Made by a program: the position numbers and the translations under genes. Below the pieces are notes generated by a model. That model ran no database searches, was not told where the DNA came from, and saw only the letters and a program-made list of their open reading frames with translations. From IMG/VR virus record IMGVR_UViG_3300032093_000636, positions 1-28,795 of that record: DNA of 28,795 bases. One strand, given 5' to 3'. Within the stretch, counting starts at the first letter, position 1, and each line of letters opens with the position of its first letter. Below, piece after piece: positions 2,736 to 26,594 of the stretch. This DNA comes from a virus.

Positions 2736-3680
2736 ATGTACGCAAACACAAGCGCATCACTCCGTGGTGACATTCAACAGGCCGTCATTCAGGCGGGCGG
2801 GGCCGATCAAGGCCTCATCGGTGGTCTCGTCATGCCTCCCTTGTCGGTGGCAACGAAGGCGGGTCAATACCTTCGCATGGATCTCGCAGGGGCTCACCTC
2901 ATGCGGGTTGACGCGAACGCCGCACGACGGGCACAGGATGGGTCTTACAACCGCATCAGCCGTCAGTTCACCGCTGACACCTACCTCTGCGAAGATCGTG
3001 GGCTGGAAGAGTTGGTGGACGACTCGCAACAGGCAGACCTCTCGCGGTTCCTCGACACCGAGGCGACCATCGCGAAGCTTCTCCTGCGCAACATCAAGTT
3101 GGCGCATGAAAGCCGGGTCGCCTCTGCGATCTTCAACTCCAGCAACTTCAACACGTCCTCGCTTTCGACGGCGTGGTCGAACTCCGCGTCAGACCCGGTA
3201 AGTGACATTCTCGCCGCTCTCGAGCGGTTGGCAAAGAAGGGCGTTCAGGCCAACACCCTCGTCGTGAACATGGAGGTCTACAACCTCATGCGGAAGAACG
3301 CGAAGGTGCAGAGCTACATCTTCGGGAGCGTTGGCACGGGCGACCTTCGCAACGTCGACGCCGCTCTGATCGCTCAGAACTTGAACCTTCAGAATGTGCT
3401 AGTGGCGAGTGCCGCGAGCGACTCCTCGAAAAAGGGTCAGGCATTCTCTGGTGGGTTCATCTGGGGCTCGAACTACGCGTGGGTTGGTAACGTGCAGGGC
3501 GGGGACTTTGTAGCAGGTGGCGCAGGCCGCACGCTGACGTGGTCCGCTGACTCCAGCGACTTGTTCACGGTGGAGACCTACCGCGACGAAGCACGTCGCT
3601 CGGGTGTCATTCGGGTGCGTCAACACACCGCCGAGAAGGTCGTTGACTCGACCGCTGGTGAGTTGATCACGATCGCCTAA
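2736..3680 (+). CDS. Major capsid protein (HK97 fold, predicted)
   Basis: A 314-residue protein that follows the protease/scaffold and cement genes, the normal place of the major capsid gene. Recognisable stretches are 'LEELVDDSQQADLSRFLDTE' (the conserved 'lvdd.e.ad' helix of many capsid proteins), 'LRNIKLAHESRVASAIF', the 'NTLVVNMEVYNLMRKNAKV' strand-helix region, and a C-terminal 'ESYR-like' ending, 'VETYRDEARRSGVIRVRQ'. No obvious long N-terminal delta domain is present, fitting a system with a separate scaffold. An intrinsic terminator begins 16 bases after the stop, so this gene probably marks the end of one strong transcript. The capsid call rests on sequence pattern and neighbours together. 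Confidence 0.85.
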   Translation: MYANTSASLRGDIQQAVIQAGGADQGLIGGLVMPPLSVATKAGQYLRMDLAGAHLMRVDANAARRAQDGSYNRISRQFTADTYLCEDRGLEELVDDSQQADLSRFLDTEATIAKLLLRNIKLAHESRVASAIFNSSNFNTSSLSTAWSNSASDPVSDILAALERLAKKGVQANTLVVNMEVYNLMRKNAKVQSYIFGSVGTGDLRNVDAALIAQNLNLQNVLVASAASDSSKKGQAFSGGFIWGSNYAWVGNVQGGDFVAGGAGRTLTWSADSSDLFTVETYRDEARRSGVIRVRQHTAEKVVDSTAGELITIA

Positions 3681-6559: not shown

Positions 6560-7193
6560 TGCAACCGTGGACTTCCGAGAGTTTAACCGCGTTCTGACGC
6601 AGTACGCGTCGAACTCGAAAATCACGGTCGAGCAAGCCGTCGCTAAAAAGTTTCGCTCGGTGGTTTTCGAGGCGCGAAAACTACAACTTGCAACCCGACC
6701 AGACACCCTCGCCGAGATCAGCCGGGTGAAGGCGCGTGGAGAACTTGGCATCAGCAAGCGCACGATGGCGCGGGTGATGAAGAAGCGCAGCAAACTCGCG
6801 CAACAGGTCGAGCGCATGAAGATGGCCGTCGCCAAAGGTGGCAAGCGGGGCCAGAAGGCCGCACTCAAGCTCATGTCAGCGACCACGCAACTCCAAAGAA
6901 GCGTATCGCAAGAGGCGTGGTCGGCAGAGGTCAAGATGCGTGAGAACGCGGCAGGACGCGCGGGAGCATGGGGATGGAGGATCAAGGGCAACCAGTTTGC
7001 GGAAATCGCCGCCGCTGAAAGGTCGGCCAAGGTCGCGAAATCATCCGACATCTTCCGCACCTTCATCGAAATCACCAACAACCGACCCGAGTCAAACGAG
7101 TTTTCGGAGCGCAAAGGCATCGTCAACCGCGCGATGTCCAATGTCCTCGCTGACATGAAAAGCTACCTCGAACGCAAACTCTCCAAACTATGA
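6546..7193 (+). CDS. Basic helical tail-module protein of unknown function
   Basis: A 215-residue protein between the chaperone and tape measure genes. I use the ATG at 6546 (GTG at 6543 is a possible alternative); upstream codons in this frame are shadow. The protein is Lys/Arg/Ala-rich and almost wholly helical, with 'KKRSKLAQQVERMKMAVAKG' and 'AALKLMSATTQLQRSVSQEA' suggesting coiled coils, and a C-terminal 'MSNVLADMKSYLERKLSKL'. It overlaps the chaperone extension by 14 bases and the tape measure start by four, so translation is probably coupled. I do not recognise a family. Its place suggests a tail assembly factor or minor tail component. Confidence 0.65.
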   Translation: MGFLSATVDFREFNRVLTQYASNSKITVEQAVAKKFRSVVFEARKLQLATRPDTLAEISRVKARGELGISKRTMARVMKKRSKLAQQVERMKMAVAKGGKRGQKAALKLMSATTQLQRSVSQEAWSAEVKMRENAAGRAGAWGWRIKGNQFAEIAAAERSAKVAKSSDIFRTFIEITNNRPESNEFSERKGIVNRAMSNVLADMKSYLERKLSKL

Positions 7194-9406
7194 GCAGCGC
7201 AGTAATCCGCATTGGTGCCGACACCTCAGACTTTCGCAAAGGCCTCAACTCCGCACTCGGGGAGATGGGTTCGTTTGCGAAGCAGATGGCCGCGGTCGCA
7301 TCGGGTCAGGCACTCTTCGCCGGGTTGCAAGGAGTGGTGTCTTCGGTCGGTTCCGCTCTTCGCGGGTTCGGTGAGACCTTCAAGGAATCCATCTCGGTCG
7401 CTGGTGAGTTCGAGTCAGTCGTCGCACAGTTCACCACCTTCTACAAATCCGCTGAGACGGCGCAAGGTGCGGTCGCTGAGTTGGCCAAGTACGCCGCAAC
7501 AACATCATTCCAACTCGGCGAAATCTCGAATGCAGGGGCAGGACTCGCGGCAGCTGGTGTACCAGCCGAGCAACTGAAGGAGACCATTCGAGTGCTCGGT
7601 GACATCGCTGCAGGGACGAAAAAACCGCTCGCCGAAATCCTGCAACCGTATGTCAAGACCCTCTCGGTCGGCAAAATGCAGACGGAGACGTTCCTCCAGT
7701 TTTTGGAACGAGGAATCCCCATCGGGGAGGAGTTGAAGAAAGCACTCAACCTCGACGACGCAGGACTCCAGAAGGCTCTTTCATCGGGGGCCATCTCCGC
7801 GCAGGACATGGTCAACGCATTGCAGCAGATGACCACGACGGGCCTCTTTAGCGGGGCCGCAGCAGCACAGGGACAAACGCTCAACGGTCTCCTCTCGACG
7901 CTCGCGGATAACGTCGAGGAGGTGAAGCGCAACCTCGGCATCGCCGCATCAACCGGGCTGAAACCGCTAATCGAGTTCGCGCAGACGCTGGTCGGCAAGT
8001 TCGCGCCAATCGGGACTGCACTCGGCAACATCTTCACCGCCGCAACCGCGAAGGCGATGCAGTTCAGCGACCAGTTCAGCGCGGGGTTCGGCAAGGCCGT
8101 TGACTTCGCGGTCAACGCATTCCAAGTCGTCGAGGGGGCGATTAAAAACGGCACCCTCTGGGATGTGCTGGTGACGAGCGGCAAGATTGCCTTCCTAGAA
8201 GTCACGGAAGCCGCCGTCCGTGCGTTGCAGGGCATCGCTGGCATATTCGACGAGGGCAACGCATTGACGGGCCTTGGTGGGCTTTTATCAGAGACCCTCA
8301 CCGATGCTCTGGGGACGGTCGCTGGTTCTGTCGCTGACACTATCGGCAAAGCACTCCTCGACGCTGCGAAGGCGTGGCTGGACTACGTCACTAACGGCAT
8401 CAAACGCATCCCTGCCGCTCTCGGTGAGTTGGTCGGCGCAATCTTCTCCTCGGGAAACACCGCTGGTCTTAGTCCGCGCACTTTGCAGGGGATGGGTGCA
8501 AATCAGCAGAGGTTCCAAACCTCGCAAAGCTACATGGCACCGCAAGCAAGCGGCATGGTCACCCCTGCTCAAGCGCAGGAAATCGCCGCAGCAAAGGCCG
8601 CTGGTTACCCGACACCGCTCACACCGGGTGAAGTGCGAGAGACCTTCGCGGGAGGCAAGCGCATCACCTACAACACGAAAGAGTCACTCTCAAACGGTGC
8701 TATCATCCCTCCCTCGAACTCAGACGCTTACGCGGAGGGCACGCCGGGTCAGGGACTCCTCGCCGCATTCGAGCGGGGTTTCGGAAAGCAGACCAACGCA
8801 ACCGAGCGTTTACAGGCGCAAAATGAGAAGCTCAGACAGGAGTTGGCCAAGCTGACCGAAGCCGCACTTCGCAACGCCACCGCTCTCCGCGAGCAATCGA
8901 GCACACTCAAAAGCACCTCCGAACTCACGGCCAAGCAGGGGCAAGCAGCAGCGGCAAAAACGAGTGGCGCGGCGCGAACTGGAGACTCGTTTACCTCGCT
9001 CGAAAAAATCGGCGGGGGTCGTCGGACGGTGAACCTCGCACCGCGCGGTCCGATGATTGGCCTCGAAGGGAAGGAACCCGGACTGCGAGGTGCAGGAGAC
9101 CTCGGGGGAGGATTCGCAAACTCAGCTGCATTCCTCGCCGCTCGGCAACGCAAACCCGCCGCACCGATGCCGATGCAAGGACCACCTGCTGCTGAGTTCT
9201 TCCAGATGCGAGCGCAGCAACTCCGAACGCCGCGCATGGACTTTGACGTGGCACCTCCGTTCCCGATGCCCGGTGGCGGGGCGATGGAGGCAAAAGACCC
9301 AGCCGTTCGCGCAATCCAACAGTACCAGCAAACGCTGACTTCGAAGCTGGATGCCGTCGTCGCTGCAATCACCAAGCAGGGTTCGCTAAACGTGGCCGTC
9401 GTATGA
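7190..9406 (+). CDS. Tail tape measure protein
   Basis: A 738-residue protein, the longest here, starting in the stop of the previous gene. The N-terminus 'IRIGADTSDFRKGLNSALG' is the standard opening of tape measure proteins, followed by an Ala/Gly-rich membrane-like stretch and then the conserved 'FESVVAQFTTFYKSAETAQ' ... 'LAKYAATTSFQLGEISNAG' ... 'GDIAAGTKKPLAEIL' ... 'QTETFLQFLERGIPIGEEL' tape-measure domain. The middle is hydrophobic-helical and the C-terminal third is lower in complexity, with 'ERLQAQNEKLRQELAKLTEA' as a coiled coil. It sets tail length. At about 0.15 nm per residue, 738 residues would give a tail near 110 nm (inference). It is coupled to the next gene by ATGA. Confidence 0.93.
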   Translation: MSSAVIRIGADTSDFRKGLNSALGEMGSFAKQMAAVASGQALFAGLQGVVSSVGSALRGFGETFKESISVAGEFESVVAQFTTFYKSAETAQGAVAELAKYAATTSFQLGEISNAGAGLAAAGVPAEQLKETIRVLGDIAAGTKKPLAEILQPYVKTLSVGKMQTETFLQFLERGIPIGEELKKALNLDDAGLQKALSSGAISAQDMVNALQQMTTTGLFSGAAAAQGQTLNGLLSTLADNVEEVKRNLGIAASTGLKPLIEFAQTLVGKFAPIGTALGNIFTAATAKAMQFSDQFSAGFGKAVDFAVNAFQVVEGAIKNGTLWDVLVTSGKIAFLEVTEAAVRALQGIAGIFDEGNALTGLGGLLSETLTDALGTVAGSVADTIGKALLDAAKAWLDYVTNGIKRIPAALGELVGAIFSSGNTAGLSPRTLQGMGANQQRFQTSQSYMAPQASGMVTPAQAQEIAAAKAAGYPTPLTPGEVRETFAGGKRITYNTKESLSNGAIIPPSNSDAYAEGTPGQGLLAAFERGFGKQTNATERLQAQNEKLRQELAKLTEAALRNATALREQSSTLKSTSELTAKQGQAAAAKTSGAARTGDSFTSLEKIGGGRRTVNLAPRGPMIGLEGKEPGLRGAGDLGGGFANSAAFLAARQRKPAAPMPMQGPPAAEFFQMRAQQLRTPRMDFDVAPPFPMPGGGAMEAKDPAVRAIQQYQQTLTSKLDAVVAAITKQGSLNVAVV

Positions 9407-10052: not shown

Positions 10053-10757
10053 ATGCAACCGATTTTTAAGGGCGAGCAGTTTCTCAAAACTTCGCACTCC
10101 TTCGAGGGAGATGAGTTTGGCAACGTCATCCAAACTTCGGTTTATGTGTATCGCGGCAACAAAATCGCAAACATCATTTCGCCGCCGCAACTGCCAAGCA
10201 TGGCGTCAGATGACCAAAGAGAAATCCTCTCTCGCTCGATGGTCTTCGACGATGCCGCTCAACTCACAACGCTCGAGGAGAGGAGGATTCGCAGTTACGG
10301 TCCAGCAAGCCGCAAACGGTTGAGCATCGACGCCAATAGCGGCACCGAGAACGTCACCGCGCATCCACGGTTTCAAGACTTGGCAGGGACTCCCGATGAC
10401 CCCGACGAGGACAATGCCATCTGGATTGAATCGAATGACACAGGCTCAACGAAGCGATTCATTGAGTTCAAAAAAGAGAGCATCAAGGGAGTGACCTCGT
10501 ACATCGCCGGGAATGGCTCGACGTTGAAAGTCACCTACGTAGACACATGGGGCGCATTCGGGATGCTGGTCAATGACATCGGCAAAATCGCATTCCCCGA
10601 GGTAGACATTTGGGGGAGCTCGACTTCGTGGCTTCTCGCTGGTGCGACCGCCGAGCCGTTTGGCAACCGCTGGAAAATCAGCCTTCTGTACCGCAACGCA
10701 TCGGCCAACTTTGGCCAATACAACGGCGATGGGTGGGCAACGCAGATTTACAGCTGA
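10053..10757 (+). CDS. Tail-tip protein, second tandem paralogue
   Basis: A 234-residue protein three bases after its paralogue. Residues 101-139 repeat the neighbour's block: 'VTAHPRFQDLAGTPDDP', 'NAIW', 'KRFIEF', then 'GVTSYIAGNGSTLKVTYVDT' matching 'GITTYLAPQWTFNLTFMSD'. Both proteins also end with similar strands around 'RWKISLLYRN' and 'AWRIQVQLLG' and finish in a short polar tail. The N-terminal third differs from the paralogue. Likely two related ring or tip subunits that arose by duplication. The start sits behind 'CATAACC-ATG', and the stop overlaps the next ATG. Confidence 0.68.
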   Translation: MQPIFKGEQFLKTSHSFEGDEFGNVIQTSVYVYRGNKIANIISPPQLPSMASDDQREILSRSMVFDDAAQLTTLEERRIRSYGPASRKRLSIDANSGTENVTAHPRFQDLAGTPDDPDEDNAIWIESNDTGSTKRFIEFKKESIKGVTSYIAGNGSTLKVTYVDTWGAFGMLVNDIGKIAFPEVDIWGSSTSWLLAGATAEPFGNRWKISLLYRNASANFGQYNGDGWATQIYS

Positions 10758-12571
10758 TGCGCATCCCCTACGTAACGACCAAAGGACCGATTTCTGATGC
10801 CGTGAACGCGATTGCACGGCAAGTGAATCGCCTGTTGGTGCAGCAAAATGAGGACTTTACCGCTGACGCAACGCCGCGTGGAACGGTGCTCAACCTCAAG
10901 CGCAAAACGCCTGTGGACGATTCCGCATCGAGTGCTTCTCGATTCGCGCCAATCATTCGTGAGGGCGAAAAGTTCTACATCGTCACTCCTTGGCACATTG
11001 GCTATGTCGGTCCAGTTGTGACGCTCAATGGAGGGAAGGAGACACGCGGGTTTCAGTTGTCGGGGACGGTCAGCACCCTGTGTGTAAAAATCAAAGTCAA
11101 GTGGTCGGCTGAAAAGCATTACTACGCAAACACGCAGACATACCCTGAGTTCAATCCATACGACCCGATTTGCCAATGGACTCTCTGCGCTTACAACGCG
11201 GATTTTGAATACTTTACTGCGCTTTGGGCAGCTGCCGAACAACAGTGCATCGAGGATAAGCAAAATCAGAATGGAGGAGGAGGAGGAGGATCAAGTGGAG
11301 GAAGCGGTTCAAGTGGGGGAAGCGGGGCGAGCGGTGGCGATGGCTCAAGCGGTGGTGATGGTTCGAGTGGTTCAAGTGGAGGTGACGGTTCTAGCGGAGG
11401 GTCAAGTGGAGGAAGCGGTTCAAGTGGAGGAGGAGGAGGAGGAGGAGGCACAAGTTTACCCGGTGACCTCGACGGTGACGGCATTGTGGGCGACCACATC
11501 ATCGACGCTTGCGGATACAACCCGATCGCAGGTTACACGCTTGAGAAACCCATCGAGCAGACCGACGCTGGCAAGTTGCGACCTTACTACGTTTTAACCG
11601 GGGGCGAAGTCATCCTCGAGCAGGTCGAGAACTACAGTGGCCAGCAATGTTTCATCAAGGAACTGGTCACAGGCGTTGAGCGAAGCCTCTACCCGTGCGA
11701 ACTCGTTCAAGGGCCGTGGAATAGTTCTTTGTATCGGGTTGACGCCGAAGACATCTGCGAGAACGGAGAAACAACAGACCAACCTCCAGAGAGTTACTTG
11801 GACACAAGCGTCGTCACGCATCACACGCTTGAGAAGGAGTTGCTCCTCCCCATCATGTTCATCCACAAGCGTGGAGACAGTTATGAGGCCACCACTTACG
11901 GTGGACACCCCGGACTGCTTCCTGCAACCCCAGAGGAGACCAAACTCGAAGGGCAAGAGGTGCAATATGATGAGGAGGGGTTGCCGCCGATGAAAAGCAG
12001 CACCTTCACAAACTACCATTGTGAGACCTTCATCCATCACATCGAGACCAAGCCAAACTGCGACTACGACCCCGAGCCAACGCAGGGGGATATGCCGGGC
12101 ACGGGTGCAAACCGTGAAACTGTGCCAGACTGGTCTCGCGGTTGCATCGTCACCGAGCGCAACATGATAGGAGAGGCAGACATTCCATATTACTACGGCA
12201 CCCTGTCCATCCCTGTTGAAGCGTGTGAGCTGGCACCACCTCCAGACCCACCACCAGACCCACCACCAGACGGAGGAGGTGCGGACGATTATTGCACGGG
12301 GCCACCTCCTGTTTACGCGCCTACCGTTACTGGCGCGGCAGTACCCGCCGAGACCGTTGAGGATGTGTTGATGATGGACAATCAAGACGATTCGACGTGG
12401 CGAAAGTTGGATGACGCTCGGCCTCTCACCGAAAATAAGCCTCGCAAAGTGGCATTCCCTCTCCCCGTAAGCCTCGGCAACTTCGCGAGCAATGTCGCTG
12501 GACCTATACCGCGGGATGTCAACGACGGGTTTCCTCCCTTTGAATGCGAGGAGGAGCCACCACTACCTTAA
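10757..12571 (+). CDS. Cysteine-rich tail protein with Gly/Ser linker and EF-hand-like loop
   Basis: A 604-residue protein; start chosen at the ATG overlapping the previous stop, since 49 upstream codons in this frame are shadow. The N-terminal domain (about 1-170) contains 'ADATPRGTVLNLKRKTPV', resembling the N-terminus of the next gene. Residues 173-231 are an almost pure Gly/Ser/Asp linker. Directly after it comes 'GDLDGDGIVGDHI', a calcium-loop-like motif (Asp237, 239, 241) of the EF-hand/dockerin type. The C-terminal half has about ten further cysteines and a 'PPPDPPPDPPPDGGG' stretch. Total cysteine count is about 14, unusual for a tail protein assembled in the cytoplasm. Possibly a host-contact protein; family not recognised. 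Confidence 0.7.
   Translation: MRIPYVTTKGPISDAVNAIARQVNRLLVQQNEDFTADATPRGTVLNLKRKTPVDDSASSASRFAPIIREGEKFYIVTPWHIGYVGPVVTLNGGKETRGFQLSGTVSTLCVKIKVKWSAEKHYYANTQTYPEFNPYDPICQWTLCAYNADFEYFTALWAAAEQQCIEDKQNQNGGGGGGSSGGSGSSGGSGASGGDGSSGGDGSSGSSGGDGSSGGSSGGSGSSGGGGGGGGTSLPGDLDGDGIVGDHIIDACGYNPIAGYTLEKPIEQTDAGKLRPYYVLTGGEVILEQVENYSGQQCFIKELVTGVERSLYPCELVQGPWNSSLYRVDAEDICENGETTDQPPESYLDTSVVTHHTLEKELLLPIMFIHKRGDSYEATTYGGHPGLLPATPEETKLEGQEVQYDEEGLPPMKSSTFTNYHCETFIHHIETKPNCDYDPEPTQGDMPGTGANRETVPDWSRGCIVTERNMIGEADIPYYYGTLSIPVEACELAPPPDPPPDPPPDGGGADDYCTGPPPVYAPTVTGAAVPAETVEDVLMMDNQDDSTWRKLDDARPLTENKPRKVAFPLPVSLGNFASNVAGPIPRDVNDGFPPFECEEEPPLP
11273..11449 (+). repeat. Low-complexity Gly/Ser-coding repeat (59 codons)
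   Basis: Irregular tandem units built on GGAAGCGGTTCAAGTGG and GATGGTTCGAGTGG, flanked by GGA-rich runs, encode residues 173-231 of the host gene. The units are near-identical but staggered, so copy number could change by slippage. Length is a multiple of three throughout. Confidence 0.85.
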
Positions 12572-13178: not shown

Positions 13179-14213
13179 ATGCTCACGCTCACCGTCGCAC
13201 TCGATTCTGGACTCGTTTACGTCAGCGGTCTTCGCCGCTCTGACGACCAAGAGGTCTTGGTTCGCAACGGCGATGTCATTCCAACGGCCATTGAGTTCCG
13301 CAGCACTATCTCGTCGAGTTCGACCGTGGATATGGGCAGTTCGACGGGATTGCGGTTGACCGTAAAACCGAAGGGAGACTTCGACGCAAACCCTCTGCTC
13401 TCGTTCTCCAGCTGGGCGAGGACGGTCACCAGTGGGGCTTTTTCGTATCGCGCAACCCTAAACACCGCGAGCGGTGGCATCGACCGACTGCTAGGCGTTG
13501 ATCCTTATGACGCCGCCGAGGTGGTCGCCGTACAAACAAAAGCAACGACGACGGAAGGCGTTTATTTCGACCTTTCTGACGCTTCTGGACCTGTTCGGGT
13601 GTGGCTAGGTGGTTTGACCACTCCGACGCCAGATTCACCCCTTGGCGGTCGTTTGCTGAAGGTGTTATTCGACGGGACTGAGACCGCCGCCGCACTCGCC
13701 GCAAAAGTCGCTACCGCCATCGATGCCGACCTCTCGTTTTTAGCCTCAGCGGTCAACGACATCGTCACCGTCACGGCGACCACAATCGGACAGCGAACCG
13801 CACCCCATTCACGCTCGTCTGGGTTCGGTGTCACCGTCATCACCGCCGGGGGAGATGAGACCGTGGTCGATGTCCCTTCGGTCGTGCTTCAAGCCGAAAT
13901 CGCGTGGGCTTACGACGGCAACCTGACGACCACTCGCGCTCTTCGCTGGAAGGTCGAGAACACGAACCGCCGCGCCTCTCAACCCGTCAGCCTCCCTTTT
14001 TTCGACACATCGAACATCGCCGCATCAGTCCTGTTGTTCACCCCGCAGACGTTGACTGGTCCCCAGCAAACTCAGGCGCGTGCGAACATTGGTGCAGGAG
14101 CAGCGATTGCTGGCACAGGCGTTGACGGCAACATCGTGGGCGTCGTCGGAGGAGTCACAACTTACACAACGCTCGACGCTCTCGGGGCGGGAATCGACGG
14201 GGGCCAAGTTTAA
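13179..14213 (+). CDS. Tail protein, beta-rich, with fibre-type C-terminus
   Basis: A 344-residue protein. The first part, 'LTLTVALDSGLVYVSGLRRS', and the repeated beta segments ('TATTIGQRTAPHSRSSG', 'WAYDGNLTTTRALRWKVEN') look like a tail tip or upper-fibre domain. The C-terminal 'FTPQTLTGPQQTQARANIG' is a well-known fibre signature ('LT..Q..qAR.NIg') found where trimeric fibre shafts begin or connect. This makes it a candidate connector between tip and fibres. The 24-base gap upstream holds a purine-rich GAAGGG about 11 bases from the start. Exact family not recognised. Confidence 0.62.
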   Translation: MLTLTVALDSGLVYVSGLRRSDDQEVLVRNGDVIPTAIEFRSTISSSSTVDMGSSTGLRLTVKPKGDFDANPLLSFSSWARTVTSGAFSYRATLNTASGGIDRLLGVDPYDAAEVVAVQTKATTTEGVYFDLSDASGPVRVWLGGLTTPTPDSPLGGRLLKVLFDGTETAAALAAKVATAIDADLSFLASAVNDIVTVTATTIGQRTAPHSRSSGFGVTVITAGGDETVVDVPSVVLQAEIAWAYDGNLTTTRALRWKVENTNRRASQPVSLPFFDTSNIAASVLLFTPQTLTGPQQTQARANIGAGAAIAGTGVDGNIVGVVGGVTTYTTLDALGAGIDGGQV

Positions 14214-14228
14214 CAACATCAAGACATT

Positions 14229-15371
14229 ATGCCGAACACTATCCAAATCAAACGCCGCCTCGCATCCACGGGAGTCGCGGGAATCACTTTGCAACCGGGG
14301 GAGATGCTGTGGCAGGAGTTTGACAACCAACTCATGATCAAAAAGGCCGATGGGACCATCATCCCAATCGGCGGGGAAGGCACATCGACCTCCGAGGGGA
14401 TGGTCACCACGGCCAACCGTTTGCAGACCATTGCAGGGCAGAAGAACTTCAACGGCATTGCCAACATCACGGGTCAGCTGCAAATCGGTGGGACGCAAGT
14501 AACCTCTGACGCTGCTGAACTCAACAAGCTGGATGGCGCGTTGGTCACGACCGCAGAACTCAACAAACTCGCGGGACTCAGCGACGGGACAGCAACCGCA
14601 AACAAGGTGCTCATCGTCGATGCATCGAAGAATCTCGACCTCGGTGCGGGGTTGATTTCGACCTCTGGTGTACCCACGGCGACCAATCATTTGGTCAACA
14701 AAAAGTATGTGGACGACCTCGCGCAAGGTCTCGACGTAAAAGCCTCGGTACACGTTGCAACCGCCGCAGCATTACCCGCTTGCACTTACAACAACGGGTC
14801 GAGCGGCGTCGGTGCAACTCTGGTGGCCGACGTAAACGGCGAGTTGGTCGTCGATGGTCACACCCTCAATAACGGCGAGTACGTGCTCGTAAAGAACCAG
14901 ACGCCGACCCTTCAAAACGGTATCTACACCGTAACCGCATCGGGCAACGTCAACTCACCCTTCATCCTCACCCGCCGCACCGACGTGGACACGGGCACCG
15001 AGTTGACCTCGGGGTCGTTCTGCTTCGTGGAGCAGGGGACCAGCAACGCATCAACGGGCTGGGTGCTTTCCACGCAAGGCGCGATCGCAATCGGGACGAC
15101 GGGGTTGGTATTCACTCAGTTCTCAAGCGCAGGAGTCGCAGACGCTGGTGACGGGTTGCAAAAGGTCGGGACTCTCATCTCGGTCAAATCGGCTTCCGCG
15201 AACCGCATCGCAGTCTCACCCGGCGGCGTTGACCTCGCGACCATCTCGGGACTCACCGCGAGCACCGAACAAGTGATGTTCTCGGTCGATACCTACGGGC
15301 GCATCACAGCGGCGAGCAAGAACATCCCCGCGACTGCTGGTGTGACAATCGATTGTGGTGTGATTGAATAG
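14229..15371 (+). CDS. Tail fibre protein
   Basis: A 380-residue protein typical of fibre shafts. It begins '[18 protein letters not shown]' and '[19 protein letters not shown]', as in many fibre N-termini that describe a 'value list'. It then carries '[19 protein letters not shown]' and 'LNKLAG', the ELN-xLxG triple-helix/beta repeat of fibre shafts. The later segment '[15 protein letters not shown]' ... '[20 protein letters not shown]' is a module I know from many cyanophage and environmental-phage fibres. The C-terminus ends 'TIDCGVIE'. It should form part of a trimeric receptor-binding fibre. The start is after a 15-base gap without a Shine-Dalgarno. Confidence 0.85.
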
Positions 15372-15376
15372 CGAGC

Positions 15377-16759
15377 ATGGCCAACCTCATTCGCCAACTC
15401 CGCAAGGAGACGAGTGGTCTCCCATCTGCCGCAGGGATTCCGCAGGGGGTGCTTCTCGTCAACACCGCCGACGGCACTCTCTCGTTCCCAAAGAGCGACT
15501 CCAGCGGGTGGAACACCCTCGTCACCAGCACAGGCACCACGACCTCATTTGCACTCTCGCAAGAGTTGTTCACGGGCACGGGTGCTCAAACCACATTCCA
15601 AACCACCTCAACCAGTTCGGTCGATTCGCACTTCATAGTCGCCGTCGGTGGCGTGTTCCAGTCAGCGGGGACTGACTACGCGGTGACAAACGGGTTGATC
15701 ACGTTTGCCTCTGCGCCACCGAGCGGAGAGGAAATCAACGTGCTCATCGCCTCGGGCGGGACGGTCGGACCTCAAGGTGTCGCAGGACCATCTGGCGCAC
15801 AAGGGGCGAGTGGCGCAACGGGGCCGAGTGGCGCGACGGGACCGAGTGGTTTGCAGGGCGAGGTCGGGCCGCAAGGTCCAGCGGGTGAGTTTGGTGGAGC
15901 GACAGGCGCGACTGGGCCGAGCGGTCCATCAGGGCCAGCAGGGTCGCCGGGTGGTGCGACGGGGCCGAGTGGTGCGACGGGCGCGACGGGGCCAAGTGGC
16001 GCGACGGGGCCAGAGGGTCCATCGGGTTTGCAGGGGGCGCAGGGGCCAGTTGGTCCGCAAGGTCCGTCTGGACTCGCTGGTGCGGAGGGAGCGACTGGGC
16101 CGCGAGGATTTGCGGGGCCAAGTGGCGAACCCGGTACACCCGGAGGTCCACCGGGACCGCCGGGGACTGAAATCTTCATCGAAGACCGTGCGCCGAACCT
16201 TAACGACTGGGAGACAGGCATCGTCGGGGACATTTGGATCAATGCGTTAACAGGCGACATTTATGAGAAAACGGACAACCCGGGCAACGGAGCGGGTTCT
16301 GGTTGGTTTTTCACGAATCGCAGTTTGAAAGGCGCGACTGGGCCGAGCGGTCCAATCGGGCCGCAAGGCGTTCCGGGGCCGAGTGGACCCGCAGGGCCGC
16401 AAGGGGCGCAAGGTATCGTGGGGCCAACTGGTGCAGATGGCGCGACGGGTCCGAGCGGGCTACCGGGAGTCGCTGGCGCAAAAGGCGAGCCGGGCGAGCC
16501 GGGAGGTCCACCGGGGCCAGAGGGTCCAGCTGGGCCAGCAGGGCCACAGGGTCCGTCAGGTCCAGCTGGCGCATCGGGTACTTTAGGAGAGGATGGCGCA
16601 ACAGGAGCGACAGGCGCGAGCGGGTTACCCGGGCCACCGGGGCCGCAAGGACCACAGGGGTATGGCATCGGCGAGACGGACAACCTACCGACCAACCCGA
16701 CGCAGATTGCAGGGTGGTATGTAGGGATCGGCGGCAAGTTTATCCCCTTCTACACTTGA
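15377..16759 (+). CDS. Collagen-like tail fibre protein
   Basis: A 460-residue protein. Residues 58-128 are a module also present in the gene at 17945. Residues 131-263 and 319-428 are two collagen-like Gly-X-Y arrays rich in GPSG, GATG and GPQG, separated by a folded insert ('[20 protein letters not shown]' ... 'SGWFFTNRS'). A short C-terminal cap ends '[14 protein letters not shown]'. Collagen arrays in phage fibres form trimeric rod segments. Many Y positions are Ser or Thr, so glycosylation is conceivable. A glycosyltransferase gene follows after a hairpin. The fibre call is firm; receptor unknown. Confidence 0.88.
15548..15760 (+). repeat. Fibre module copy 1 (71 codons)
   Basis: Encodes '[20 protein letters not shown]' through 'INVLIASGG', just before the first collagen array. 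It matches 18119-18331 in another gene, with the same length (213 bases), no apparent indel and roughly two-thirds identity by eye. An intragenomic module duplication. Confidence 0.8.
15767..16165 (+). repeat. Collagen-like Gly-X-Y array 1
   Basis: About 133 codons, with Gly at nearly every third residue and units such as GPSG, GATG, GPQG. A few breaks occur (for example GEFGGATG). The DNA is strongly repetitive (gggccgagtggcgcgac-type units), so both length variation and assembly collapse are possible. Confidence 0.9.
16331..16660 (+). repeat. Collagen-like Gly-X-Y array 2
   Basis: About 110 codons of Gly-X-Y repeats ('[19 protein letters not shown]' and similar), again with Ser, Thr and Ala in many Y positions. 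It is separated from array 1 by a folded insert of about 55 residues. Confidence 0.9.
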
Positions 16760-16782
16760 GGCGTGGAGCATTTGCTCCAGCC
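16760..16782 (+). promoter_or_regulatory. Stem-loop between the collagen fibre and glycosyltransferase genes
   Basis: TGGAGC (16764-16769) pairs with GCTCCA (16774-16779) around the loop ATTT, extended by GGC/GCC with one bulged G. No T run follows, so termination is unlikely. It lies eight bases before the glycosyltransferase ATG and could affect initiation or mRNA stability. Confidence 0.55.
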
Positions 16783-16790
16783 TATGCGAC

Positions 16791-17948
16791 ATGACTACGT
16801 TGCATTGCCTTGCTGTCCCTCACACCGTAACGCATCCAGAATACTCAGCGTGCGCTTTCACGCAGAAGGTCTTGAAGTTCTTGGAGATGTTCAAAGACTC
16901 CAAGGACTTCCGCACGGTCCACTACGGTCACCCAGACTCGCAAACTGCTGCGCACGAACACGTCAACGTCATCACTCGCGAAATCCACCAGCAGACTTAC
17001 GGCGATTTCGACTGGCGCAAAAACCAGTTCAAGTTCTCGAGTTCGGACTTGTCGCACCGCGTCTACAACTTGGTGGCGGGGGATGCGATTTTGCAGACCA
17101 AGCAGAAGGGGGACTTCGTCCTCGCGTTTTGGGGCGGGACCGCTGAAGCAACTTTCGCCGCAAACAAGGACAACGACTTGGTCGTCGTTGAACCCGGCAT
17201 CGGCAACGGTCACGCATTCGCGCCATTCCGCTGTTACGAATCCTACCCGCTTCTGGCCGCGCATTACGGCACCGACCGAGTCTCTCACTGCAAGCCGCAA
17301 TGGTCGTGGCGCGTGGTTCCGAACTATTTCAATCTGGCCGACTTCGACGACTCTTTGCCGCGTGAAGATTATGCGCTCTACATCGGGCGCATCGGGGTCA
17401 ACAAAGGTCTCCACGTTGCGATGGACGCTTGCAAGCGCATGGGCATCAAGCTGAAGGTCGCGGGACAAGGTGGACCAGATGCGTTTGGTCTCAAGGAGTG
17501 GCCTGATCACGTTGAGTTTGTTGGGTGCGTTGGTATCGAGCAGCGGCGCGAGTTGATGGGTCGCGCGAGGTTCGGCTTTCTTCTCTCCCAATACTGGGAG
17601 CCGTTCGGAGGGACGGCAGTTGAGATGATGCTCTCGGGGTGCGTCCCCATCGTTAGCGACTTCGGCGCGATGACGGAGTACATCGTCGATGGAGTCAATG
17701 GGTTCCGATGCCTCTCAATGCGCGACATCCTGCGAGGGATAGCCAACGTGGACCGCATCGACCGCTCGGCAATGGTGCGTTTCGCACGGGCCAACTTCTC
17801 GCTCGACGCCGTGCGTCCAAAGTTTTTGCGAGCGTTTGAGGATTTCGCGGAGACCAAGTTTGGCGCGGGATGGTACGGGGAGCCGAAACCGTGGATCACA
17901 GGACTCGGTCTGGACTTCTCGCATTTGACGAGCACCCCAATGGTATGA
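16791..17948 (+). CDS. GT4-like glycosyltransferase (GT-B fold)
   Basis: A 385-residue protein with hallmarks of retaining GT-B transferases: 'YIGRIGVNKGLHVAMDAC' (residues 197-214, the typical 'GRl...KG' donor-domain opening), 'LKVAGQGGPD', 'VEFVGCVGIEQRRELMGRA', and the E-x7-E motif 'EPFGGTAVE' with Glu270 and Glu278, followed by 'GCVPIVSDFGAMTEYIVDG'. These enzymes move a sugar from a nucleotide donor to an acceptor. Here the gene lies between two fibre genes containing collagen-type segments and overlaps the next one by ATGA, so a virion fibre is a plausible acceptor; host cell-wall or LPS modification is an alternative. No membrane segment is seen. Enzyme class is firm; acceptor is inferred. 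Confidence 0.88.
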   Translation: MTTLHCLAVPHTVTHPEYSACAFTQKVLKFLEMFKDSKDFRTVHYGHPDSQTAAHEHVNVITREIHQQTYGDFDWRKNQFKFSSSDLSHRVYNLVAGDAILQTKQKGDFVLAFWGGTAEATFAANKDNDLVVVEPGIGNGHAFAPFRCYESYPLLAAHYGTDRVSHCKPQWSWRVVPNYFNLADFDDSLPREDYALYIGRIGVNKGLHVAMDACKRMGIKLKVAGQGGPDAFGLKEWPDHVEFVGCVGIEQRRELMGRARFGFLLSQYWEPFGGTAVEMMLSGCVPIVSDFGAMTEYIVDGVNGFRCLSMRDILRGIANVDRIDRSAMVRFARANFSLDAVRPKFLRAFEDFAETKFGAGWYGEPKPWITGLGLDFSHLTSTPMV

Positions 17949-18676
17949 AGCGAGTTTCTAACCAACTGCTAAAGGACGCGACGGCGGTCGGTAAAAGCCT
18001 CATTTCAGCGACCGACGCAGCAGCGGCCAGAACCTCCCTCGGACTCGCGACCGTCGCCAATACGGGCAGCTACAACGACCTCACGGACAAGCCTACGAGC
18101 ATCGGCGGGAGTGGTTCGTTTGCGCTTACGCAGTTCGGTTTCACGGGCACAGGGTCGCAAACCGTGTTCGAGACAAGCTCGACCGATTCGACCGATGCAC
18201 ACTTCATCGTCTCGGTCGGCGGGGTGATGCAGTCGGCTGGAATCGATTACGTTGTGACAAGCGGCGTCATCACCTTCCTCGTCGCGCCGTTTTTAAACGA
18301 GAGAATCAACGTCCTTGTCGCGTCGGGAGGAGTCGCAGGGCCATCGGGGGCGTCTGGGGCGCAGGGGCCGCAGGGACCAGCTGGCGATGCAGGGACTTCG
18401 TTCGTATTCGTCGGGGTTTACTCTTCGAGCACCGTGTACACCGTTGGCCAAGTGGTTCGGTACGAGGACACCGCCGCGCAGACCATTGGGTGTTACGTTC
18501 GCAAGTCGGTTTCGGGTTCCGAGGTGCCAACCGACTCGACCAAGTGGGACGCCATGCTGGTTATGCCGACAACAGGCGGTGGTGGCGGTGGCACGACAAC
18601 CTACACTTTCACTCGTCCCGAGGGAGGAACTTACCTTCGCCCGGGCACCACAGACAGATACACAAGAGCAGCTTAA
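17945..18676 (+). CDS. Modular tail fibre protein with short collagen segment
   Basis: A 243-residue protein starting at the ATG overlapping the glycosyltransferase stop. The N-terminus, 'RVSNQLLKDATAVGKSLIS' then 'ATDAAAARTSLGLATVA', closely parallels that of the gene at 20176. One copy of the 18-residue repeat follows ('VANTGSYNDLTDKPTSIG'). Residues 59-129 are the same 71-residue module found in the collagen fibre protein. A brief collagen stretch 'GPSGASGAQGPQGPAGDAG' follows, then a small C-terminal domain with 'YSSSTVYTVGQVVRYEDTAA', similar to carbohydrate-binding or fibre-tip modules. It mixes blocks from other fibre genes here, so it looks recombinational in origin. Confidence 0.8.
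   Translation: MKRVSNQLLKDATAVGKSLISATDAAAARTSLGLATVANTGSYNDLTDKPTSIGGSGSFALTQFGFTGTGSQTVFETSSTDSTDAHFIVSVGGVMQSAGIDYVVTSGVITFLVAPFLNERINVLVASGGVAGPSGASGAQGPQGPAGDAGTSFVFVGVYSSSTVYTVGQVVRYEDTAAQTIGCYVRKSVSGSEVPTDSTKWDAMLVMPTTGGGGGGTTTYTFTRPEGGTYLRPGTTDRYTRAA
18119..18331 (+). repeat. Fibre module copy 2 (71 codons)
   Basis: Encodes 'FALTQFGFTGTGSQTVFETS' through 'INVLVASGG', just before a short collagen segment. Partner of 15548-15760, same length and same position relative to collagen repeats. Confidence 0.8.
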
Positions 18677-18688
18677 CCACCTACGAAC

Positions 18689-20164
18689 ATGGCAGATTTA
18701 CCAGTCACACAAGTGGTCGATACCTTCATGGGTTCGACGGACCAAGCGGAGATGCGGACCAACCTAGGGTTGGGTGATTCCGCGACGAAATCAGTCGGCA
18801 CCACATCCAACACCGTGGCCGCTGGAGATGACTCGCGCATCGTCGGAGCCGTGCAAACGACTCGCTCAATCAGCGCAGGGACGGGTCTCTCTGGTGGTGG
18901 CACTCTCGCGTCAGACCGCACGCTCTCGGTTTCGTTCGGTAGCACCGCAGGGACGGCGTGCGAGGGAAATGACTCGCGCTTGAGCAACTCGCGAGCACCA
19001 TCGGGGTCAGCGGGTGGTGATTTGTCGGGGACGTACCCAAACCCGACTGTGGACAAAATACAGGGGCGAAGCGTTTCAACTGCAGCACCAACTAGCGGAC
19101 AGGTGCTCACATGGAACGCAACTTTATCTAAGTGGGAACCGATCACACCGAGTGGTCAGGCATCCAGCTTTGAGTTTCATGTGCTCCTAACGCAGGGGCA
19201 AGTAGGGTCAAATCAGACCGTTTCATTCTCAACACCATCTGGGTACAAGTGGGTCGACATCATCGCGTGCTCGGCTGGAGGAGGAGGAGGCGCGGGTGCG
19301 TTGTTTGAGAAGGTTAACGACCCGGGAGCACCAGCAGCTGGTGGAGGTGCTGGTGGGTCCAACGGAGTGCTCCGACGCATCCAGCGTCTGCCCTGCGAAA
19401 ATGTGACATTCACCGCCGTGCTCGGTGGTGCTGGTGCTGGAGGAACGCCGAGGGCTTACGACAACATGAATGGCGAGAGCATCCAAGGTGGCGACGGTGG
19501 AGGTCTGCAACTCTACTGCAACGGGGCCATATTCCAAGGGATGACCCAAGGGGTGACAAACCAGATGCTCATCAACATTCCGAGCAACGAGGGAGGCAAA
19601 GGAGGGCTTGCGGGAAACACAGGATCAGCAGCTGGCCTATCGAACAATGCTCCTGCCGGGCGCATCAATCCGACCTTCAGCGTCGGCACGGGTGGTTACA
19701 ACTCGGCTGGCATTGCGCCAATCGTGCAGTCGTGGGGCACCGATGATTTCGCAACCGTTCATCCCGGTTCGGGAGGAGGTGCGGCAGCAGATGGGAGTGA
19801 CTACGACGGCGGTGGAATCTGCGATGCGAACGGGTTCCTGTTCGACGCAATCGCGCAGACCACTGTGGACTTCCAAGGTCGCAGCACCTTTGCCAACGGT
19901 TCGTCAACGGGCGGTGATGCAATCCCGATTTATCACACCGTTGGCACTCCGACTTGCTTCTTCGGAGGTGCTGGAGGGGGAGGGTCTTACGTTGACGGGT
20001 TGAGCAGTCGCAGTCGTGGTGGAGACGGCGCGAACGCTATGCCGGGATGTGGAGGAGGTGGCGGTGGTGGATGCATCACCGAGGCCGCATCGTTGTATCA
20101 GTCTCGCGGTGGCAGAGGCGGGGACGGTGGCCCAGCCTTCGTGCTCGCATTCTTTTATCGCTAA
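18689..20164 (+). CDS. Glycine-rich tail fibre/adhesin protein
   Basis: A 491-residue protein. The N-terminal part has fibre motifs: 'QAEMRTNLGLGDSAT', 'NTVAAGDDSRIVGAVQTTR', and 'GGDLSGTYPNPTVDKIQG' (residues 109-126), the last being very common in fibres of environmental phages. From about residue 180 it becomes a glycine-rich adhesin domain: 'KWVDIIACSAGGGGGAG', and later many GGxGG and GGGG runs up to 'RGGRGGDGGPAFVLAFFY'. Glycine-rich tips of this kind, where loops vary and the core is a polyglycine-like sandwich, form receptor-binding domains in several phages. It is likely a distal host-recognition protein. The start is behind 'CGAAC-ATG'. Confidence 0.8.
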   Translation: MADLPVTQVVDTFMGSTDQAEMRTNLGLGDSATKSVGTTSNTVAAGDDSRIVGAVQTTRSISAGTGLSGGGTLASDRTLSVSFGSTAGTACEGNDSRLSNSRAPSGSAGGDLSGTYPNPTVDKIQGRSVSTAAPTSGQVLTWNATLSKWEPITPSGQASSFEFHVLLTQGQVGSNQTVSFSTPSGYKWVDIIACSAGGGGGAGALFEKVNDPGAPAAGGGAGGSNGVLRRIQRLPCENVTFTAVLGGAGAGGTPRAYDNMNGESIQGGDGGGLQLYCNGAIFQGMTQGVTNQMLINIPSNEGGKGGLAGNTGSAAGLSNNAPAGRINPTFSVGTGGYNSAGIAPIVQSWGTDDFATVHPGSGGGAAADGSDYDGGGICDANGFLFDAIAQTTVDFQGRSTFANGSSTGGDAIPIYHTVGTPTCFFGGAGGGGSYVDGLSSRSRGGDGANAMPGCGGGGGGGCITEAASLYQSRGGRGGDGGPAFVLAFFYR

Positions 20165-20175
20165 CCACGCTAACC

Positions 20176-21294
20176 ATGCAACAGGTCTCAAACAACCTCC
20201 TCGGTCAGGCGACCACGGTGGGCAAACAGTTGCTATCGGCAACTGATGCCGCCGCCGCGAAAACGGCGTTGGGACTCTCAACGGTGGCCACCTCTGGCGC
20301 GTATGCTGACCTCAGCGGCAAACCCGCACTTGCTAACGTGGCCACCTCTGGCGCGTATAGCGACCTATCGGGCACGCCGAGTCTCGCAACCGTTGCCACC
20401 TCCGGCAGCTACAACGACCTCGCGGACAAACCAACCGGAGGAGGGACGCCGCCACAAATCAATCTCTACACCCTCACAACTCACCCGTCCGGCACAGCAA
20501 CTTGGACAAAACCGACAGGGGCAAAATCGGTGAACGTGCAGATGTTCGGAGGTGGAGGAGGAGGAGGAAGTGGACGCAAAGACGCATCCTCCAACGTCGT
20601 CCATTGTGGCGGCGGTGGCGGCGGTGGAGGGAGCTATCTCAACGTAACGCTACCCGCTGACGCTCTAGACTCAACGGTCGCCATCACAATCGGAGCTGGT
20701 GGCAACGGTGGCAACGGACAAACCGCAACCGCTAATGGAGTTGACGGAACCAACGGATTCAACTCGACTTTCGGAACCTTGGTCGCCACAGGAGGAGGAA
20801 GAGGAATAGGCGGTTCCATCACGCTCGGAAGCGGAGGAGCCGCCGCACTTAACTCAAATGCAGGGGCGAGCGCAGCGGTCAACGGTGGTGCTGGAGCCAT
20901 CGGCAACCCGAACGCGCAAAATGTCGCATGGAGCTATGGTGGAGCAGGAGGAGGGGCAGGGGGGGGAATTTCGACTGGGAACGCACCTTTTTTCGGAGGC
21001 AACGGAGGTCGCTCCAACGCACTCAACGTGCTTGGTGGTGGAGCAGGAAATACCACAACCGCAATCAATGGAGGAAACGGAACCGCCAATTCCAACGCTG
21101 AATTTGGTTTCCTAGCGTCTGGGTCGGGAGGAGGAGGAGGAGGGGCGCAGATAAATACAGATGGAGGGACAGGAGGAAATGGTGGTTTTCCAGCGGCAGG
21201 AGGAGGGGGTGGTGGCGCAACTCAAACTGGCACTCAATCTGGGGCTGGAGGGAGTGGAGCCGCCGGAATGGTAATGGTCACAACCTATTTTTAA
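20176..21294 (+). CDS. Second glycine-rich fibre/adhesin protein with 18-residue repeats
   Basis: A 372-residue protein; the ATG at 20176 follows 'GCTAACC', and the longer upstream frame is shadow. The N-terminus parallels the gene at 17945 ('QVSNNLLGQATTVGKQLLS', then 'ATDAAAAKTALGLSTVA'). Three tandem 18-residue repeats follow. The C-terminal two-thirds is very rich in glycine ('VNVQMFGGGGGGGSG', repeated GGxGGN runs), ending 'GAAGMVMVTTYF', like the previous gene's tip. The two adjacent genes thus share an adhesin-type tip on different shafts, possibly alternative or co-assembled receptor-binding proteins. Confidence 0.8.
   Translation: MQQVSNNLLGQATTVGKQLLSATDAAAAKTALGLSTVATSGAYADLSGKPALANVATSGAYSDLSGTPSLATVATSGSYNDLADKPTGGGTPPQINLYTLTTHPSGTATWTKPTGAKSVNVQMFGGGGGGGSGRKDASSNVVHCGGGGGGGGSYLNVTLPADALDSTVAITIGAGGNGGNGQTATANGVDGTNGFNSTFGTLVATGGGRGIGGSITLGSGGAAALNSNAGASAAVNGGAGAIGNPNAQNVAWSYGGAGGGAGGGISTGNAPFFGGNGGRSNALNVLGGGAGNTTTAINGGNGTANSNAEFGFLASGSGGGGGGAQINTDGGTGGNGGFPAAGGGGGGATQTGTQSGAGGSGAAGMVMVTTYF
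20284..20445 (+). repeat. Three tandem 54-base repeats in a fibre gene
   Basis: Units begin at 20284, 20338 and 20392. The first 21 bases of units 1 and 2 are identical; unit 3 is more diverged. Each encodes 18 residues of the type VATSGAYxDLSGxPxLAx. A single diverged unit occurs at 18053 in another fibre gene. Confidence 0.88.
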
Positions 21295-22616: not shown

Positions 22617-22710
22617 GGTTCACCAGCTGGTCAGCATCGGTGCCGCTTGCGCCGCACTCATTTATACGGTGCTCAAAACGATTCAACTCATCCGCGAACT
22701 CCGCAAATGA
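22534..22710 (+). CDS. Small membrane protein overlapping the gene upstream
   Basis: A 58-residue ORF beginning MNLDQTNPHDLLVVPAVNF and ending 'LIYTVLKTIQLIRELRK'. One strong hydrophobic segment (about residues 33-53) is followed by a positively charged end; a second weak one lies near residues 11-27. The first 83 bases are shared, in another frame, with the tail of the 22230 gene. Its stop TGA overlaps the ATG of the endolysin, so coupling is evident. Possible roles are a spanin-like or holin-type protein, but no lipobox or periplasmic domain is visible. Confidence 0.6.
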   Translation: MNLDQTNPHDLLVVPAVNFAALMLGLTEVHQLVSIGAACAALIYTVLKTIQLIRELRK

Positions 22711-23318
22711 CTCTCTCACCTGAAGGTCTCAAACTCCTCCTCGATTACGAAGTCGGTGGAGGTGAATCCTACTTCCGCAAGTTTCTCTCTCGCCCAACGT
22801 GGCCGGGCGAGCAGTCTGGCGTGACCGTCGGCATCGGGTTCGATTTGGGATACAACACCGAAGCGCAGTTCTCCGAAAGTTGGGGACCAGTCCTCGCGGA
22901 CACCTCGTTTGAGTTGCTCAAGGGGTCGCTGGGGATTCGCGGAGAGGCCGCGCGTTTGTGGCTTCATTCGAGAGAGGCCGTGCGATCCATCGAGGTGACG
23001 TGGAATCAAGCTCTCGACGTGTTCCAGCGCATCACCGTCCCTCGGTTTTACCTCCAGACCATGCGGATTTATCCACAGGCTGAGACCCTACCAACACCCG
23101 CACGCGATGCGCTTATCTCTTTGGTGTTCAACCGTGGCGCAGCACTCTCGGGCGACCGTCGAGCGGAGATGGTCGGCATTCAGAATGCACTCCGCGATGG
23201 CCGTCTCTACGATGTCCCCGACCTCCTGCGCTCCATGAAAAGACTGTGGCCGAACACTACTGGCTTGCAGAAACGGCGTGACGCGGAAGCATCTCTGTTT
23301 GAGAGTGCTGTGGCGTGA
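22707..23318 (+). CDS. Endolysin, lysozyme-like (pesticin/T4-type fold, putative)
   Basis: A 203-residue protein starting in the stop of the preceding gene. It opens 'SPEGLKLLLDYEVGGGESYF' with likely catalytic Glu15, followed after an insert by 'GVTVGIGFDLGYNT' (Thr40, Gly-Ile-Gly-Phe-Asp), the order used by T4-type muramidases (E...TxGiGh-like). A helical C-terminal half includes 'ARDALISLVFNRGAAL' (the conserved 'a..sl.fN.G' helix), 'SMKRLW' and a final 'GLQKRRDAEASLF', as in phage lysozymes. It would cut peptidoglycan glycan strands. No signal peptide is seen, so release would depend on a holin. This placement after the membrane genes fits. Confidence 0.82.
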   Translation: MTLSPEGLKLLLDYEVGGGESYFRKFLSRPTWPGEQSGVTVGIGFDLGYNTEAQFSESWGPVLADTSFELLKGSLGIRGEAARLWLHSREAVRSIEVTWNQALDVFQRITVPRFYLQTMRIYPQAETLPTPARDALISLVFNRGAALSGDRRAEMVGIQNALRDGRLYDVPDLLRSMKRLWPNTTGLQKRRDAEASLFESAVA

Positions 23319-25871: not shown

Positions 25872-26594
25872 ATGGAGAAGACACTATCACTATTCACCAA
25901 CGTATCGGACCCCGTAGGGGCCGCGATGCAGCTGGGCGAGGCATTCGCCGCATCGGGAATGTTCGGATGCACCAAACCCGCACAAGGGGCGATTCTGGCC
26001 TTGCAGTGCCTAACCTCTGGCCTGACCCCGTTTGAGGTTACCCAGACCTACCACCTGCTCGACGGCAAGCTGAGCATGAAAGCCGATGCTATGCTCGGGC
26101 GATTCGTCGCTGCCGGGGGCAAGGTCATCTGGGGCACTCGGACCTCCGAGCGGGTCAAAGCTCGGTGGATTTACCGCGACAACGACCTCGAGATGGAGGT
26201 CACGATGCAGGAGTTGGTCGCCTCGGGCGTTGCGCTCGGAAAGGGCGGTGAACTCAAGGACAACTACAAACGCCACCCTCGGCAAATGCTGACGGCGAGG
26301 TTGATCAGCGAGGCCGTGCGACTGCTCGCGCCAGACGTGGTCAGCGGAGTCTACACACCCGAAGAGGTGTCAGACTTCACCCCGGCACCAGTCGAACGAG
26401 TCGCCGCCGCACAGGTGGTCGCACCCGTGGCCGAGTTGCCGCCAGCAGACCCCGAGGAGGCCTTTCGCGAGGCACTCGGTGAGCATTACGAAGATGCACT
26501 GGGATTTTTCAAAACGGATGCACTCAGCGCACTCAACAAACGTACCCAAGTCGACATCCTCGCACGGACAACAGACCTAATCGCCAAACTCTAA
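25872..26594 (+). CDS. RecT-like single-strand annealing protein
   Basis: A 240-residue protein behind a C/A-rich leader. The key features match RecT-type annealing proteins: 'GKLSMKADAMLGRFVAAGGK' followed by 'VIWGTRTSERVKARWIYRD' and the conserved end of the core 'KRHPRQMLTARLISEAVRLL' with 'APDVVSGVYTPEEV'. The C-terminal 70 residues are acidic and flexible, with 'RTQVDILARTTDLIAKL' at the end. RecT-like proteins anneal single strands and drive phage recombination. Unusually, no partner exonuclease gene is visible next to it; one may lie beyond the right edge, or none may be needed. Confidence 0.72.
   Translation: MEKTLSLFTNVSDPVGAAMQLGEAFAASGMFGCTKPAQGAILALQCLTSGLTPFEVTQTYHLLDGKLSMKADAMLGRFVAAGGKVIWGTRTSERVKARWIYRDNDLEMEVTMQELVASGVALGKGGELKDNYKRHPRQMLTARLISEAVRLLAPDVVSGVYTPEEVSDFTPAPVERVAAAQVVAPVAELPPADPEEAFREALGEHYEDALGFFKTDALSALNKRTQVDILARTTDLIAKL

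Follow-up and report, generated by a model that had tools for sequence, protein, structure and literature searches.

The DNA analysed here, the 28,795-base IMG/VR record IMGVR_UViG_3300032093_000636 (hereafter the window), is a tailed-phage structural region as judged by Pfam and PHROG profile searches of its open reading frames (ORFs), and its source is an uncultured siphophage-like tailed phage. The scans covered late ORFs of the window, though not every one, and the contig may be incomplete. Within its tail-fibre module (Table 1), a gene for a glycosyltransferase (GT) lies between two genes for fibre proteins carrying collagen-like Gly-X-Y repeats. This arrangement raises the possibility that the enzyme O-glycosylates the collagen-like fibre or fibres encoded beside it, which is the reading we consider the likelier, because collagen-like genes also adjoin homologous GTs in Bacillota and because the spore protein BclA3 offers a precedent.

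Glycosyltransferase and flanking fibre genes

On profile and structural-model evidence, the window gene encodes a GT4-type glycosyltransferase of GT-B fold. Its C-terminal domain matches Pfam Glycos_transf_1 (PF00534) above the cut-off (E=8e-15), and the match to PHROG 3408, 'glycosyltransferase', is full-length (positions 7-359 of 363; E=6e-93). The original prediction of a GT4-like enzyme with an E-x7-E motif at Glu270 and Glu278 was borne out by these matches, by the invariance of both glutamates in two alignments (9 and 41 sequences) and by the AlphaFold model. This model (mean predicted local distance difference test score, pLDDT, 91.8) had GT-B glycosyltransferases as its best PDB matches, with template-modelling (TM) scores up to 0.72 by query length. 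The nearest solved relatives were cyanobacterial UDP-glucose enzymes, the alpha-1,2-glucosyltransferase tll1591 and a tetrahydrobiopterin glucosyltransferase; as they use UDP-glucose, they hint at a UDP-hexose donor for the window enzyme, while giving no indication of the acceptor. Assignment of donor and acceptor from the fold was dropped, since the fold matches only generic GT-B enzymes. GT4 enzymes are retaining, and an alpha linkage is expected. The locus had also been described as a 'gene set', which does not hold, as only one GT is present.

The enzyme had further been placed between two Gly-X-Y fibre genes and described as translationally coupled to the second. The position is correct and both neighbours carry Gly-X-Y repeats, but unequally: those of fibre 1 run from about 15758 to 16667 in tracts of 16-22 repeats, whereas fibre 2 has only one short tract. 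The coupling was confirmed, as the GT stop codon (TGA, 17946-17948) overlaps the fibre 2 start codon (ATG, 17945-17947) in an ATGA at 17945-17948. We place the fibre 2 start at ATG 17945, and not at that of a longer ORF from 17870, because of start homology in relatives (MTRVSNNLLKDA...). By direct reading, fibres 1 and 2 share a segment before the Gly-X-Y tract, FTGTG.QT.F.T.ST.S.D.HFIV.VGGV.QSAG.DY.VT.G.ITF. The window fibre proteins are collagen-like and would form a trimeric triple helix; across the 88 window repeats, Pro occupies 43% of X positions and the Ser/Thr share is 36% at Y and 6% at X, in line with the earlier observation that many Y positions are Ser or Thr. Across GT-linked tracts, Ser/Thr accounted for 33-84% at Y against 3-21% at X.

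Collagen-like neighbours of the enzyme in phage and bacterial genomes

Phage scans yielded 32 close loci and at least 503 GT relatives in IMG/VR, 80 of which were fetched. A collagen neighbourhood was scored where a tract with 8 or more Gly-X-Y repeats lay within 4 kb of the GT. In the window clade (11 representatives below 88% identity; SH-aLRT 100), all 10 testable representatives had such a tract, mostly in the next gene upstream, and outside it 10 of 24 testable phage representatives did. The collagen state changed 6 times on the phage GT tree. Homologous GTs are also paired with a collagen gene in the unrelated cyanophages ACG-2014f (42% identity) and S-CAM7 (40% identity), and in S-CBWM1 (30% identity) a Gly-X-Y tract ends 0.23 kb upstream of the GT. 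These three enzymes belong to PHROG 3408, with full-length homology to the window GT, but reside in larger genomes (139-228 kb) with other backbones, where they are annotated only as GT or moron. ACG-2014f and S-CAM7 differ from the window in an extra 2-oxoglutarate (2OG) oxygenase, methyltransferase-like gene or second GT.

The pairing was also found in bacterial genomes. A genome pattern scan gave 23 bacterial loci, 13 of them in Bacillota, and in 11 of the 12 judgeable Bacillota loci a collagen-like gene lay beside the GT, 10 times directly upstream on the same strand. When 391 genomes of the class were drawn evenly, 3 carried the GT, of which 2 were new and both beside collagen, bringing the Bacillota total to 13 of 14 testable loci. 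Most of the Bacillota loci from the pattern scan are on contigs of metagenome-assembled genomes, the long ones being L354 (588 kb) and L360 (87 kb). The Bacillota homologues are 34-36% identical to the window GT over the whole enzyme, and one collagen-like partner (L350) has a BclA_C domain above its cut-off. On a combined phage and bacterial tree, collagen pairing appeared in several separate places, with 11 changes of state; as this was a quick tree with long branches (S-CBWM1, Nocardia), such counts of independent gains are rough. Taken by itself, the GT-collagen adjacency in phages could arise simply because host-recognition genes cluster, a confounder that the Bacillota loci largely remove, since what these loci share is a collagen-like neighbour within a bacterial genome.

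Phages that share the window backbone but lack the GT were found with a conserved tail-module gene as anchor. Four such relatives (L119-L122) had no GT across the whole contig, while retaining an orthologous fibre gene; their module held 24-26 Gly-X-Y repeats, compared with 76-241 in sampled GT-bearing relatives (window 88). This contrast fits with a longer collagen needing, or tolerating, the GT. In a cyanophage control with small numbers, collagen was present in 3 of 3 GT-bearing species and true collagen in 2 of 12 GT-less ones (S-PRM1 and S-CAM9); the matches in SynMITS9220M01 were poly-Gly, and three in S-SSM7 were uninspected. In S-CAM9 (L221, record 27398-34416), a collagen-bearing tail fibre with Lys-rich Y positions is followed by two 2OG-Fe(II) oxygenases, with no PHROG 3408 GT.

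In other phages, the GT occurs with collagen plus a prolyl 4-hydroxylase (P4H)-like 2OG oxygenase, a methyltransferase or a second GT4, and these recurrent partners suggest larger collagen-modifying cassettes outside the window. Some GT relatives, many of them without collagen, lie near a second GT4, methyltransferases or a carbamoyltransferase, which points to putative glycan-tailoring sets whose acceptor may differ among them. A collagen-like gene together with a P4H-like 2OG-Fe(II) oxygenase (PF13640, which we take to be a prolyl-hydroxylase-type family) and the GT recurs in L053, L070, L088/L091, the L243 contig (G054), L002 and L004, a grouping that is only suggestive of a possible collagen-maturation cassette. 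The oxygenase adjacency in ACG-2014f was set aside as evidence by itself, because cyanomyoviruses carry many scattered oxygenases of this kind. By motif reading, the GT domain is fused C-terminally to methyltransferase-like domains in L052, L055, L059-L062, L092 and L096 (FkbM-like in L092, otherwise class I-like), which suggests that the glycan made is O-methylated.

Proposed acceptor of the enzyme and alternative explanations

We propose that the enzyme is a nucleotide-sugar-dependent GT made together with the fibres from the tail-fibre operon, and that in the infected cell it would attach a sugar, probably a hexose from UDP-glucose or similar, to the neighbouring collagen-like chain or chains. 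The most likely sites would be Ser/Thr residues occupying Y in the Gly-X-Y triplets, modified before the triple helix closes, and the sugar would stabilise the collagenous shaft of the fibre, hydrate it or shield it. Glycosylation is reported to be able to stabilise collagen (Bann 2000, as cited in PMC3368898).

Glycosylation of spore collagen-like proteins by a neighbouring GT is already known, as is virion glycosylation in mycobacteriophages. The SgtA enzyme of C. difficile, whose gene directly precedes bclA3, adds N-acetylglucosamine (GlcNAc) to Thr of the collagen repeats (PMC7157674). The likeness to the window lies in a dedicated GT gene adjoining a collagen-like gene, with the sugar on Thr (also Ser) of the repeats (PMC7157674). 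By their descriptions the two differ, in that SgtA is a GT with tetratricopeptide (TPR)-like repeats that forms beta-O-GlcNAc and is encoded upstream, whereas the window GT is of GT4 type, downstream and phage-borne. The Bacillota homologues (L350-L354, L356-L358, L360, L361 and L364-L366, near collagen-like genes) are candidates for a collagen glycosyltransferase distinct from SgtA. In mimivirus, the virus-encoded enzymes L230 and R699 hydroxylate and glucosylate collagen (PMC9546862). They act, however, on (galactosyl)hydroxylysine, with a DXXD Mn site in R699 (PMC9546862), whereas Lys is nearly absent from the Y positions of the window collagen, and its surroundings yielded no oxygenase.

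Several observations weigh against collagen-fibre glycosylation. Outside the window clade, 14 of the 24 testable phage representatives had no tract within 4 kb, and all testable actinobacterial homologues were without a collagen tract nearby. Collagen specificity is thus not a property of the whole GT family, given these collagen-less homologues. Within a clade, adjacency is partly shared ancestry, and one member of the window clade, L031, lacks any tract over 8 kb of its surroundings; L038, from the same cluster, has one 3 kb downstream. The GT-less sisters may form one lineage and their contrast may represent one evolutionary event, and their Y positions are also Thr-rich (31-42%); Y composition alone is therefore no argument for glycosylation, and Ser/Thr enrichment as proof of it was dropped. 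Of 74 contigs in which a pattern search had located collagen, only 3 carried the GT, which is not distinguishable from 0 of 26 gp23 controls; a gp23-based contig control was weak and made up mostly of short contigs. Most phage collagens thus do without it, and the idea of the GT as a general companion of phage collagen was rejected. Moreover, the nearest solved structures are small-molecule or polysaccharide glucosyltransferases, and a recombinant E. coli prophage collagen was unglycosylated yet stable (PMC3368898).

The original suggestion of fibre decoration therefore stands in part, supported by the way GT and collagen genes repeatedly adjoin in unrelated phages and, independently, in Bacillota genomes, but not as a trait of the entire family. 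It had also named GT homologues without collagen and next to lipopolysaccharide (LPS) or wall genes as contrary evidence, and to some extent these exist, both among the collagen-less phage representatives and in Actinobacteria, where one locus (L347) lies near an acyltransferase/SGNH gene and another (L349) near a PMT_2 gene. In a Nocardia genome (G143, locus L359) there are five GT paralogues, with no collagen near the locus examined.

The strongest competing explanation is that, as infection nears its end, the GT alters a glycan on the host surface (LPS, capsule or wall polymer), against progeny sticking to debris or superinfection, and sits in the fibre module since host-recognition genes cluster there. 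We consider this improbable, yet it remains a live rival because of the collagen-less homologues and the other glycan enzymes near several phage members, and the actinobacterial neighbours just mentioned also favour it. GTs of host-recognition clusters in pelagimyophages have been assigned to O-chain modification (PMC7029224), and the window resembles phages with O-antigen- or LPS-modifying GTs in having a phage-borne GT near host-recognition genes. It differs from them in its pairing with collagen-like genes, and the window ORFs scanned, on what may be an incomplete contig, gave no match to a flippase, membrane GT, sugar-synthesis, LPS or other glycan gene. The ATGA coupling to a fibre gene also speaks for fibre glycosylation, as does the recurrence of the collagen pairing in Bacillota, where phage host recognition is irrelevant.

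It is quite unlikely that the GT glycosylates virion fibres generally, for instance at a globular tip, altering host range or shielding from binding. In L022-L024, the adjoining upstream gene does encode a fibre of 996 aa that lacks Gly-X-Y, with 3 kb separating the GT from the collagen gene, and mycobacteriophage virions are glycosylated by phage-encoded GTs (Freeman 2023, as reported in PMC11256854 and PMC12619734); as described there, capsid and tail-tube subunits are modified, as opposed to the collagen fibres proposed here. It is the Gly-X-Y protein, however, that the phage lineages and Bacillota have in common, and no shared tip domain was seen. A passenger or moron gene, with a small-molecule acceptor or one unrelated to its neighbours, would agree with the glucan-type and tetrahydrobiopterin glucosyltransferases among the best PDB matches, but is very unlikely given the fibre-module position kept across the window clade and the collagen pairing repeated in distant lineages. 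A role in DNA hypermodification (base glucosylation) is extremely unlikely: GTs acting on DNA are known from phages (Pyle 2024, cited in PMC12619734) and distant relatives repeatedly have 2OG oxygenases, methyltransferases and a carbamoyltransferase in their vicinity, but the GT sits in a fibre module, the oxygenases match PF13640 and not a TET/JBP family, and the Bacillota homologues pair with collagen-like and not DNA-modification genes. The scanned ORFs of this possibly incomplete contig held no TET/JBP or hydroxymethylase base-modifying enzyme.

More tentatively, and with rather less assurance than for the window enzyme itself, a single GT4-type family of O-glycosyltransferases dedicated to collagen might be common to phages and spore-former-type bacteria. 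Aquatic phages would then make glycosylated collagen fibres, and some T4-like phages would carry whole maturation cassettes (collagen, prolyl-hydroxylase-like oxygenase, GT and sugar methyltransferase), which would be the prokaryotic counterpart of collagen modification in animals and mimivirus. A limited literature search found no report of phage collagen-fibre glycosylation, and no description of a phage GT paired with collagen-like tail fibres whose family is common with collagen-adjacent GTs of Bacillota. The tail fibres of phages are nearly always regarded as protein without modification; glycosylation of their collagenous shafts, if correct, would bear on prokaryotic collagen folding without hydroxyproline, on how particles adsorb and how stable they are, and on collagen biomaterials derived from phages. 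The proposal also offers a testable function for the large, so far unassigned phage family PHROG 3408 and for the Bacillota homologues beside collagen-like genes.

Other features of the window

Table 1. Features of the 28,795-base window
Feature	Position	Strand	Evidence
Lambda-family portal	81-1268		
Capsid	2736-3680		
Tape measure	7190-9406		
Fibre module	about 13-21 kb		
Conserved tail-module gene, backbone anchor for finding GT-less sister phages	13179..14213	+	
Upstream fibre/decoration-type virion protein gene, same module	14229..15371	+	PHROG tail fibre / head decoration matches; syntenic in relatives
Collagen-like tail-fibre gene 1, 460 aa, proposed acceptor	15377..16759	+	Pfam Collagen (PF01391) E=2e-32; PHROG tail-fibre families
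Intergenic gap fibre 1 / GT, 31 bases	16760..16790	+	sequence; gaps of relatives compared
GT4-type glycosyltransferase, 385 aa, PHROG 3408, GT-B fold, Ex7E E270/E278	16791..17948	+	
Fibre gene 2, one 8-repeat Gly-X-Y stretch, domain common with fibre 1	17945..18676	+	PHROG tail-fibre matches
Downstream glycine-rich tail/fibre gene, same module	18689..20164	+	PHROG minor tail protein 1e-21
Downstream glycine-rich tail/fibre gene	20177..21294	+	Pfam Gly_rich_2 1e-14; PHROG minor tail (scanned as 20047-21294)
Lysozyme-like match, weak	22647-23318		E 0.004
RecT	25872-26594		

For the second downstream glycine-rich gene, the start is probably ATG 20177, as MQQVSNNLLGQATTVGK resembles the start of fibre 2. 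The gap between fibre 1 and the GT contains a small inverted repeat, GGAGCATTTGCTCC, read by eye, and in L032 and L011 a different, longer inverted repeat (GCAAGACTG...CAGTCTTGC) occupies the same gap between collagen gene and GT; these are possible attenuators or terminators. Elsewhere in the window, a Ser/Gly-rich (GSSGG) low-complexity stretch at 11279-11397, within the ORF at 10610-12571, mimics the Gly-X-Y pattern at the DNA level and is not collagen.

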